DNA from: Brachyspira hampsonii
GTDB lineage: Bacteria > Spirochaetota > Brachyspiria > Brachyspirales > Brachyspiraceae
Length of the DNA: 64,000 nt
Assembly (NCBI RefSeq): GCF_002214805.1
Contig: NZ_CP019914.1
Coordinates: forward strand, 1,364,001 to 1,428,000
Reading direction: 5' to 3'
Part shown: piece by piece, positions 3,223 through 44,968 of the stretch
How the letters are laid out: each line of letters begins with the position of its first letter
How positions within the stretch are numbered: position 1 is the stretch's first letter
The notes under the pieces: model-generated
What the model was told of the DNA's origin: nothing
What the model saw: the letters and a program-made list of their open reading frames with translations, nothing else
Database searches by the model: none
Translations under genes and position numbers: made by a program

Positions 3223-3547
3223 ATTTCCCCACCCTATATATTTACTGTTTTAATTACAAATATTAATTATTTTTTATTTTTTAGCTAAAATAAAAAAAAC
3301 ACAACCCACCCAAGTTTTTTATTAAATTTTATGCTTATTTCAACGCACGGTAAGTAGATTTTTATTATATAATTTAAATTTGAATGATTAATTAATTTAT
3401 ATATTTAGAATAGCTAACCGTGCGTTTTGGTAAGCTATATATTTTAAATAAGCTAGGGCGGGCATGCTTTTTTAGATTATAGCTATAAATGAAATGAAAA
3501 CAAAAGTTTATAAACTAATTGCAAAGCATAGCGGGCGGGGAATTAGA
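3223..3547. repeat. nested-palindrome intergenic repeat, complete copy 1
   Basis: About 325 bases with six GC-rich blocks in an AT-rich background, arranged A-B-C-C'-B'-A'. A (CCCCACCCT) is near 3227-3235, B (CCCACCCAAG) near 3305-3314, C (AACGCACGGTAAG) at 3342-3354, C' (ACCGTGCGTT) at 3417-3426, B' (AGGGCGGGCATGC) near 3455-3467 and A' (GCGGGCGGGG) near 3531-3540. The second half is complementary to the first, so the element can form a long interrupted hairpin. The gaps between blocks are close to 64, 27, 61, 26 and 62 bases, which is nearly symmetric. Other copies are at 9460, 44526, 44642 and 45727. It contains no gene. Confidence 0.75.
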
Positions 3548-7279: not shown

Positions 7280-7759
7280 ATGAAAAAGTATTTACTTGAG
7301 AATAAATTAGAAGATATTACACCGTTAATAGAAAATTTGTCTGCTGAAGTAAAAAAATATATACCAAATAATGAAATAGAGTTATTTGCTGCGGCATTAT
7401 ATGAAGTTATAATGAATGCTATTGAGCATGGGAATCTCAATATTTTATATGAAACTAAAAAAAGTTGGCTTAAAAAAAATGTTTACCATAAAAAATTAAA
7501 AGAACTTCTAAAAACTGATAAAGCTAAAAGCACACATGTAGAGATAACATTGCAAATAGAAGATGATAATATTATTATTTCTGTTAAAGATCAGGGACTT
7601 GGATTCAAACCTAAACAGGAAGCAAAAAAAATAAATAATGATGGATTTGCCCGTGAAAGCGGAAGGGGAATTATGATGATTAAATCGTATTTTGATGAAG
7701 TAAAATTCAATAAAAAAGGCAATGTCATAACATTAATGAAAATAATAAAAAAAGAGTAA
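7280..7759 (+). CDS. RsbW/SpoIIAB-like anti-sigma-type ATPase
   Basis: A 159-residue single-domain GHKL ATPase (HATPase_c_2 type). The N box reads YEVIMNAIEHGN (about 47-58), the G1 box DQGLGF (about 111-116) and the G2-like box ESGRGIMMIKSYFDEV (about 129-144). Such proteins are serine kinases that bind sigma factors or anti-anti-sigma factors in partner-switching systems. A Lys-rich insertion (KKSWLKKNVYHKKLKELLKTDKA) lies between the N and G1 boxes. No STAS-domain antagonist or sigma gene is nearby, so the partner is unknown. There is no ribosome site, and the promoter suggests a leaderless mRNA. The neighbouring NUDIX-kinase and a second RsbW-like protein hint at one signalling cluster (inference). 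Confidence 0.75.
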   Translation: MKKYLLENKLEDITPLIENLSAEVKKYIPNNEIELFAAALYEVIMNAIEHGNLNILYETKKSWLKKNVYHKKLKELLKTDKAKSTHVEITLQIEDDNIIISVKDQGLGFKPKQEAKKINNDGFARESGRGIMMIKSYFDEVKFNKKGNVITLMKIIKKE

Positions 7760-7879: not shown

Positions 7880-9430
7880 ATGTCTAATGATAAAAAAGCA
7901 AAAAAAGTAAAAAATACTAAATATTTTCATAAATCTCCTCCTATACAATTGGATACAGGGTTTGTTAACTTAGAAAGGTTTATGGCTATAAATGAATATG
8001 ATGACGGGACTTTTTCTAGGGAATATAACTGCGATATAATAAATAGAAAAGGCAGGGATGCTGTTATTATAGTTCCGTACACTTATATAGACAATCAAAT
8101 ACAGGTTCTTATGATAAGCACTTTCAGACCGGTAGTTTATTATAGAGAGAAAGTAATGACAGGAAAAAACTCTGAAGAAATTGATGAATATATTATGAAT
8201 TTTTTAGAGTTCCCTGCCGGTATGCTTGAAGAAGATGAAATGAATGAAAAGAATCCTAATCAGGGAATAAAAAAATGTGCTAAAAGAGAGCTTGAAGAAG
8301 AAACGGGCTATAATGTAGACTTAAAAAAGATAAATGTATTGGGACATAGATATTATAGCTCTTCAGGCATTATTACAGAAAGAATTAATATTGCCACATG
8401 TGATATAACAGGATTAACGCCGACAAAAGAAATTAAAACTGATGGTTCTGTTATGGAAGAAACTATAGAATCTTTTTTCGTGCCATTTGAAAAGGCTATG
8501 AGATGGTGCAAAGAAGGTATAATAAAAAATGCCGGTACTGAAATAGGACTTCATAGGCTTTATTTCTCTATAATGTATGAGCATCAAAAAAATCATAATT
8601 TAATACTTCAAAAAAGGCTTCATGCACTATTAAACGAAATAAATTCTCTCAAAAAAAGTGCTGAACATTACAATAGATTAATAAGAGAATTCAAAGCTAC
8701 TGTTTCCCATGAATTAAGACATCCGTTTACAGAAATCATGGGATATATTAATCTTCTTAAAAAAAATAATATGCCTGAAGAAAAAAGAGAGGAGTTCTTT
8801 AATATAGTTTCAAGGAGCATTAAAAAACTTTATGATACTAATAACAATCTTATACAAATAGCATTAAAAGATGATGAAAGTTCAAAATATGTATCCGAAT
8901 TTAATATTGAAGAAGAACTTAATATTATTATAGAAGGCTATAAATTTATTTACCCAAAAAATATTAATATAGAAATAAATGTAGAAAAAAACTGCATCAC
9001 TTTAATAGGATATCAAGGAAGGTTCAGACTTATTATGGAAGGTATAATATCCAATGCATTTAAATTTACAAAATCCGGAACTATATCCATAAATGTAAGA
9101 ACTTTAGATACTATAGAAAAAAAAGAGCTTGATTTCTCACCTGACTTATTTAATTATCATACTATGAAGAATATAATACCAAATGAAATTGAGATAATAG
9201 TGAAGGATACAGGAAAAGGAATAAAACCTAGCAAATTAAAAAAGGTATTCATACCATTTTATCAGGCCGATTCAAGATTTGAAAGAGAGTACGGAGGAAT
9301 GGGAATTGGTTTATCTGTTGTAAAAGATTTGCTTGATACTATGCAGGGTACTATAAATATAGACAGTTCAGAAGGTGCTGGTACAATAGTAAAACTAAGA
9401 ATACCTTTTGGCATTCCTAGCAAAAATTAG
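7880..9430 (+). CDS. NUDIX hydrolase-histidine kinase fusion
   Basis: A 516-residue soluble protein with two joined parts. Residues about 45-235 form a NUDIX domain like ADP-ribose pyrophosphatases: EFPAGMLEEDE, then RELEEETGY (R136, E137, E140, E141), and SSSGIITERINIATCD after it. The NUDIX box has about eight extra residues between its first Glu and the REL core. Residues about 250-285 form a helical linker and a DHp domain, with phospho-acceptor H277 in TVSHELRHPFTEIMGYINLL. A HATPase domain follows: N box ISNAFKFTKSG, G1 VKDTGKGI, F box FIPFYQADSRFEREYGG and G2 GMGIGLSVVKDLL. There is no membrane segment and no receiver domain. It may sense a nucleotide-sugar such as ADP-ribose and phosphorylate an unlinked response regulator; this role is inference. 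An 11-base inverted repeat (9427-9437 with 9450-9460) overlaps the stop. Confidence 0.85.
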   Translation: MSNDKKAKKVKNTKYFHKSPPIQLDTGFVNLERFMAINEYDDGTFSREYNCDIINRKGRDAVIIVPYTYIDNQIQVLMISTFRPVVYYREKVMTGKNSEEIDEYIMNFLEFPAGMLEEDEMNEKNPNQGIKKCAKRELEEETGYNVDLKKINVLGHRYYSSSGIITERINIATCDITGLTPTKEIKTDGSVMEETIESFFVPFEKAMRWCKEGIIKNAGTEIGLHRLYFSIMYEHQKNHNLILQKRLHALLNEINSLKKSAEHYNRLIREFKATVSHELRHPFTEIMGYINLLKKNNMPEEKREEFFNIVSRSIKKLYDTNNNLIQIALKDDESSKYVSEFNIEEELNIIIEGYKFIYPKNINIEINVEKNCITLIGYQGRFRLIMEGIISNAFKFTKSGTISINVRTLDTIEKKELDFSPDLFNYHTMKNIIPNEIEIIVKDTGKGIKPSKLKKVFIPFYQADSRFEREYGGMGIGLSVVKDLLDTMQGTINIDSSEGAGTIVKLRIPFGIPSKN

Positions 9431-9459: not shown

Positions 9460-9702
9460 ATTACATGCCCCACCCTTTTAATTTTTTAACCTGATAATAA
9501 ATATAAAATTTTATATTTCTTTATTATCTATTGAAAAAATATAGCACCCGCCCAAGCTTTTTTTAGAAAGTGTGTAATACTCAACGCACGGTAAGCTAAA
9601 CTACAAATATTAATAATATTGAAATTTACATTTAATTATAATAAAAAGTGCCGTTCACCGTGCGTTAATTTTAAATATCATAACTAGATTAATCATGGCA
9701 GG
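9460..9702. repeat. nested-palindrome intergenic repeat, copy 2 (3' arm decayed)
   Basis: Blocks A (ATTACATGCCCCACCCT, 9460-9476), B (AGCACCCGCCCAAG, 9543-9556), C (AACGCACGGTAAG, 9583-9595) and C' (CACCGTGCGTTAA, 9656-9668) are clear. B' is recognisable only by position (TCATGGCAGG near 9693-9702). A' would fall inside the next gene and is absent. Gaps between blocks are close to those of copy 1. No reading frame of interest lies here. Confidence 0.7.
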
Positions 9703-9716
9703 AATATAAAAATAAA

Positions 9717-10157
9717 TTAGTTTCTATTTTTAATTATTACTATCTTTCTTCCGCTGTCTTCAAAATAAAAATCATCTGTATATAAAGAAATGAGAAATAT
9801 ACCTCTTCCGCTGTCTTTATAAATATTATCCTGAGATTCTGTAAGTTCTATCATAGCCGAAATATAATCAAACCCTTCGCCTTCATCTTCTATTATAATT
9901 TCTATTTTCTCATCATCTATAGTAATATTGATATATACATTTTTATCATGATTATTTTTATTTCCATGGATTATGGCATTGGTAACGGCTTCTTCAAATG
10001 CTATCTGCAATGCATCGCATTGTTCTATACCGTTTGAATGAAGCATATCCAAAAAATCTTTAGAAATTTTGGGTATTAATGATTTATCACTTGGTATTTT
10101 TTTCATAAATAATATTTTTTCTGCTCGCTTTGGACAATCCTTAACGTACATATTCAT
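9717..10157 (-). CDS. RsbW/SpoIIAB-like anti-sigma-type ATPase
   Basis: A 146-residue GHKL ATPase domain. The N box is FEEAVTNAIIHGNKN, the G1 box EDEGEGFDY and the G2-like box DSGRGIFLISLYTDDF. It belongs to the same HATPase_c_2 family as the gene at 7280, but the two are clearly different in sequence. The start is set at the ATG at 10157. A TTG two codons upstream is possible, and a further ATG is two codons in. The upstream GGA is about ten bases away, so the site is weak. It likely acts as a kinase or anti-sigma factor in the cytoplasm. It is transcribed away from the aminotransferase gene from its own promoter. Confidence 0.75.
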   Translation of the reverse strand: MNMYVKDCPKRAEKILFMKKIPSDKSLIPKISKDFLDMLHSNGIEQCDALQIAFEEAVTNAIIHGNKNNHDKNVYINITIDDEKIEIIIEDEGEGFDYISAMIELTESQDNIYKDSGRGIFLISLYTDDFYFEDSGRKIVIIKNRN

Positions 10158-10198
10158 AATCAATTTCCGCTTGTTCTTACTATTATCAATTACTCTAT

Positions 10199-44641: not shown

Positions 44642-44968
44642 ATTACACTTGCCCACCCTCTAGATTTATAAATTAAATTTGTAATTCTTATCTTTTATTT
44701 CTTTGTTTCTAAAATTAGGCTTTTTAATTCCCACCCTATTTTATTTAAATTTATAATGATTTAAACGCACGCATAATAAAACTTAAAATATAAATCAATT
44801 AATAATCATAATTTAAATAATATATAAAATCATATCAACCGTGCGTTTAGTAGATTACAAATTTAAATAATGCTTGGGCGGGTGCCTTAAATTTCTAATT
44901 AAGCATTTAATAAAATTCAAATATAATCTTCTAAATGAATTGAAAAATATAAAGGGCGGGGTATGTAA
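44642..44968. repeat. nested-palindrome intergenic repeat, complete copy 3
   Basis: It has A (ATTACACTTGCCCACCCT, 44642-44659), a weaker B (TTCCCACCCTAT, 44728-44739), C (AAACGCACGC, 44763-44772), C' (AACCGTGCGTT, 44837-44847), B' (GCTTGGGCGGGTGC, 44872-44885) and A' (AAAGGGCGGGGTATGTAA, 44951-44968). Spacing follows copy 1 closely. Apart from this and the half copy, 44493-45262 holds only the regulatory region of the gene at 45263. Confidence 0.75.

Follow-up and report, generated by a model that had tools for sequence, protein, structure and literature searches.

A Nudix domain fused to a probably soluble histidine kinase in the sampled Brachyspirales

Histidine kinases that carry an intact metabolic enzyme as their input are rare but of a known kind, and it is the pairing of a Nudix domain with a kinase, described here, that is unusual. 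On the enzyme side, E. coli NudF and NudK and the Bdellovibrio protein of PDB entry 5c7q are enzymes that stand alone, about 180-220 aa long, and share with our protein the same fold (residues ~7-237), the Nudix helix, the acidic catalytic loop and the C-terminal helix; in contrast to these enzymes, the Nudix box of the fusion has an extra loop of 5-8 residues, and the last helix of the domain is prolonged into a histidine kinase. The NrtR regulators of NAD metabolism are likewise regulatory proteins that sense through a Nudix domain, but they join it to a DNA-binding helix-turn-helix, whereas the fusion has a C-terminal HisKA and HATPase_c pair, has no wHTH, and has kept its catalytic residues. 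With soluble HisKA kinases (the HK853 and WalK cores and spirochaete hybrid kinases), the kinase half has in common a histidine-bearing DHp domain and complete ATPase boxes; it differs from them in having an enzyme fold as input rather than a PAS, GAF or periplasmic domain, in carrying H281 in place of the usual N or T four residues after the phospho-histidine, and in a unique conserved insert in the ATPase domain. Finally, the protein encoded just upstream shares a single small domain of the HATPase_c_2 fold with the anti-sigma kinases RsbW and SpoIIAB, but it scores far below their curated equivalog cut-offs and no sigma factor or antagonist gene was seen adjacent to it.

The locus lies in a 64,000-nucleotide stretch (the window) of the Brachyspira hampsonii genome, which comprises 3.19 Mb in one contig. 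The fusion gene occupies positions 7880-9430 of the plus strand as a single uninterrupted ORF of 516 aa, and the minus strand across the same interval contains many stops. The encoded protein runs from an N-terminal Nudix domain through a linker helix into a complete HisKA/HATPase_c kinase, and all three domains exceeded the curated Pfam cut-offs: NUDIX at residues 110-206 (E 1.1e-5, 25.8 bits against a cut-off of 21.1), HisKA (DHp) at residues 269-330 (8684-8869, plus strand; E 1.5e-8), and HATPase_c at residues 380-510 (9017-9409, plus strand; E 1.5e-20), the last with its N, G1, F and G2 boxes intact in alignment. When relatives were scanned singly, HATPase_c and HisKA were each detected in 21/21 and NUDIX in 19/21. 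An assembly join, a frameshift or a chance artefact was ruled out, as the same full-length frame is present in 31/31 Brachyspirales species. No membrane segment was found in the protein, whose top 19-residue Kyte-Doolittle mean was 1.25, and by its sequence it appears to be soluble and cytosolic. These data confirmed the sequence-only reading of the gene, which had placed NUDIX, DHp and HATPase domains in one protein lacking a membrane segment.

The Nudix domain is of the ADP-ribose/NDP-sugar pyrophosphatase type and spans residues ~7-237 (7898-8590, plus strand), as indicated by Pfam and by sequence, profile and structure matches in the PDB. Its type had been recognized earlier, but its extent had been given as residues 45-235; the domain is larger, since the N-terminal subdomain of these pyrophosphatases belongs to it. 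PDB sequence and profile searches matched the GDP-mannose pyrophosphatase NudK (profile E 1e-11) and ADP-ribose pyrophosphatases (EcADPRase, profile E 5e-10). A structure search with a predicted model matched residues ~7-238 to ADPRases, NudK and NDP-sugar hydrolases at Z 15-18, which indicated the ADP-ribose/NDP-sugar pyrophosphatase fold, its N-terminal subdomain and C-terminal helix included; the best matches were 5c7q/5c7t (the Bdellovibrio NDP-sugar hydrolase, with ADP-ribose in 5c7t) and 3o61 (NudK), and Z was about 18 for NudK, EcADPRase and the Bdellovibrio enzyme. The earlier proposal of an NAD or ADP-ribose input holds as far as the ADPRase type is concerned, while its choice of ligand would be one of several candidates, as GDP-mannose and NDP-sugar hydrolases are equally near in structure.

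The Nudix box (residues 114-144; 8219-8311, plus strand) does not have canonical spacing, GX5E and RE lying 5-8 residues further apart than in the consensus: eight in this protein, at residues 121-128, in line with the insertion of about eight residues reported from the sequence, and five in the order's second family. Of the consensus GX5EX7REUXEEXGU, the protein retains G, RE, U, EE, G and U, and G114, R136, E137, E140, E141 and G143 are invariant among aligned relatives; the first E of the box (E120) is E, D or R. Six of the seven fixed box residues are invariant, compared with 43 of 226 positions overall (hypergeometric p 2e-4, phylogeny ignored). Outside the box core, R83, E110, G163, E167 and E194 are also invariant, as is the loop DGSxMEE (residues 188-194; 8441-8461, plus strand). 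NudK E100, the residue mutated in 3o61, aligns with E137. E194 occupies the catalytic-loop position beside that of NudK D152, and D152 itself aligns with T195, which varies among T, S, N, A and M. The insertion leaves the catalytic helix intact, and membership of the Nudix superfamily is a matter of fold and residues, not of spacing. Judged by this residue pattern, the active site looks intact and is probably catalytically competent.

We lean, by a modest amount, toward a soluble sensor kinase whose Nudix input binds, and probably hydrolyzes, an NDP-linked metabolite of the ADP-ribose or NDP-sugar type; speaking against it are the extra box loop, the variable position of NudK D152, and the lack of an adjacent response regulator. 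The loop and the D152 position also favor a sensor that only binds its ligand, in which the Nudix fold would have kept nucleotide binding and lost hydrolysis, as in NrtR regulators without catalysis. Nudix regulators can indeed keep binding after activity is lost: NrtR of M. smegmatis, with a box reading RQ..EK.D, has lost catalysis and is still a ligand-binding sensor (PMC6800001). In that inactive protein, however, box residues were lost as well, whereas RE..EE.G is invariant in relatives of the fusion as far as 41% identity, and we consider the loss of hydrolysis here unlikely.

In the kinase half, an alignment of 21 members showed no variation in the H, N, G1, F or G2 box. H277, previously proposed as the phospho-acceptor, was confirmed, and it begins the motif HELRHP (codon at 8708-8710, plus strand). 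The residue at +4 from the phospho-histidine is usually N or T, in a motif tied to phosphatase activity and not to kinase membership. In all 21 members this position is instead His (H281), so that the HE/DxxN/T motif is lacking, and phosphatase activity may be lowered. The ATPase domain carries a lineage-specific insert of 25 residues (409-433; 9104-9178, plus strand), within which PDLFNYH (421-427) is invariant; neither this genome's other histidine kinases nor the closest spirochaete hybrid kinases in the comparison have this insert. It was modelled poorly (pLDDT about 47-57), and the poor prediction would fit a partner-binding site.

The model predicts one continuous helix over residues 218-293 (8531-8758, plus strand; pLDDT 57-87 along the helix), in which the last Nudix helix runs directly into the linker and DHp helix 1; for the protein as a whole the model is weak (mean pLDDT 74.7, pTM 0.43), and relative domain positions in it are unreliable. 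Under the sensor-kinase reading that we favor, the protein would probably be a dimeric soluble histidine kinase in which a Nudix dimer binds, and probably hydrolyzes, a nucleoside-diphosphate-linked metabolite; because the helix is predicted to be continuous, ligand occupancy or turnover would alter autophosphorylation of H277, and the phosphate would pass to an unlinked response regulator. The joining of Nudix domain and kinase suggests that a nucleotide metabolite is possibly read directly by the cell, and that phosphosignalling is possibly coupled to the turnover of nucleotide-sugars or ADP-ribose. Signalling might also run in the reverse direction, with the kinase half as the input side controlling the Nudix hydrolase as a regulated enzyme, which would be consistent with a fully conserved Nudix site, with the presence of only three other Nudix proteins in the genome, and with a cognate response regulator that is not adjacent. 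The order of N-terminal module, helix, DHp and CA is nevertheless that of a sensor kinase, and the protein has no receiver or other sensory domain to feed the kinase, making this direction distinctly improbable.

The fusion is single-copy and near full length in 31/31 sampled Brachyspirales species, at 41-100% identity, including two genomes of a second family (45% and 41%), and B. hampsonii 30446 has the same protein at 97% identity. In the G026 match a TGA codon occurs, but it falls at the C-terminal end of the aligned protein and implies no recoding. A profile of the Nudix half, run over 393 spirochaete genomes, found the long frame, of 512-546 aa, in the 31 Brachyspirales and in no other genome; the fusion was absent from the 362 other spirochaetes, and the 17 further matches in the phylum were all stand-alone frames of 175-232 aa. 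It was likewise absent from 395 genomes of a second phylum (that of a Plebeiobacterium), where 41 Nudix matches lay in frames of 241 aa or less. Rarity was sampled in these 788 genomes of two phyla; a scan of contigs limited to close-match patterns returned Brachyspira and one unrelated kinase, and a plasmid search gave one weak match. A widespread fusion was rejected within the two sampled phyla, where related Nudix domains stand alone. From the sequence, the architecture had been noted as not known to be common, and it occurs in one order in this sample; no published description of a NUDIX-histidine kinase fusion was found in the searchable literature, which is weak evidence, as that literature mostly lacks subscription papers. 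In this sample, the distribution looks as if the fusion arose once, in an ancestor of Brachyspirales. Because every sampled member of the order has the fusion, animal gut spirochaetes included, and kinases are few (about five non-chemotaxis kinases here), it is likely a core regulator. An accidental fusion kept by chance, its two activities independent and uncoupled, would agree with a sequence that offers no direct evidence of coupling, but it is very improbable given retention of a single copy in 31/31 species, similar conservation of the two halves in distant members (40-54% in the Nudix domain, 43-61% in the ATPase domain), and the finding of no split forms.

The best clue to the output of the kinase is a conserved upstream gene that the sequence-only reading overlooked. 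This gene (7280-7759, plus strand) encodes a 159-aa protein with a Pfam HATPase_c_2 domain, and its score of 30.7 bits against the RsbW NCBIfam equivalog lies below the cut-off of 145, so that by sequence the protein appears RsbW/SpoIIAB-like at the domain level only. In 28/29 Brachyspiraceae genomes, a HATPase_c_2 gene adjoins the fusion upstream on the same strand, with a gap of 13-182 bases, and the two genes are probably an operon. The pair is kept while other neighbors change (rnpA/yidC/jag here, unrelated genes elsewhere), which argues for a functional link that would be common but not obligatory: the gene is not at the fusion locus in one Brachyspiraceae genome (G010) or in both second-family genomes, which have unrelated genes upstream of the fusion, and it is thus not essential to the kinase. 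An RsbW-like homologue was sought beside the second-family fusion genes and was not found, the best match being elsewhere in the genome. Within the second family, the upstream protein is most closely related to the C-terminal domain of a protein of ~770 aa in which membrane helices are apparent (G025, L117:4196-6508). Downstream of the B. hampsonii fusion, a second HATPase_c_2 (SpoIIAB-like) protein is encoded at 9717-10163 on the minus strand, and it is nearby in some Brachyspira species only.

For the two-component output proposed earlier, the kinase half is intact, and no response regulator was found beside the fusion gene; the 15 receiver matches in the genome, where receiver-PP2C, receiver-GGDEF, receiver-LpxC and CheY-like proteins occur, are all elsewhere. 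Among 12 HATPase_c matches in the genome, inspection identified five as non-chemotaxis histidine kinases, and the remainder include CheA, a GyrB-like protein, MutL, HSP90 and two small HATPase_c_2 proteins. Two kinases adjoin regulators of their own, one of NtrC type (L093) and one of OmpR type (L094). A receiver-SpoIIE/PP2C protein is present in 31/31 Brachyspirales species and would be a biochemically sensible partner of the RsbW-like protein, a pairing that we offer as a guess. In the sensor-kinase mechanism, the upstream protein would probably act in that pathway too, one option being a partner-switch ATPase that the receiver-PP2C protein opposes. A bolder form would be a self-extinguishing sensor, in which an active Nudix dimer gates the kinase, the signal lasts with the nucleotide supply, and output passes through the RsbW-like partner switch; we offer this version tentatively and regard it as rather unlikely.

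Two further features were observed in this genome. Outside the window, a receiver domain is fused to the lipid A deacetylase LpxC in a protein of 430 aa (L078:1474-2763; G000:C1:2311670-2312959). This fusion occurs near full length in all 31 Brachyspirales and in three other spirochaetes (G052, G062, G036), while elsewhere LpxC and receiver match separately, and a literature search found no publication on it. Within the window, an element of ~84 bases with inverted ends (AACGCACGGT) lies at 9583-9666 and again at 3342-3426; it has five intact copies in the genome, single ends also occur at 44838 and 45925, and its appearance is that of a small mobile element or repeat.
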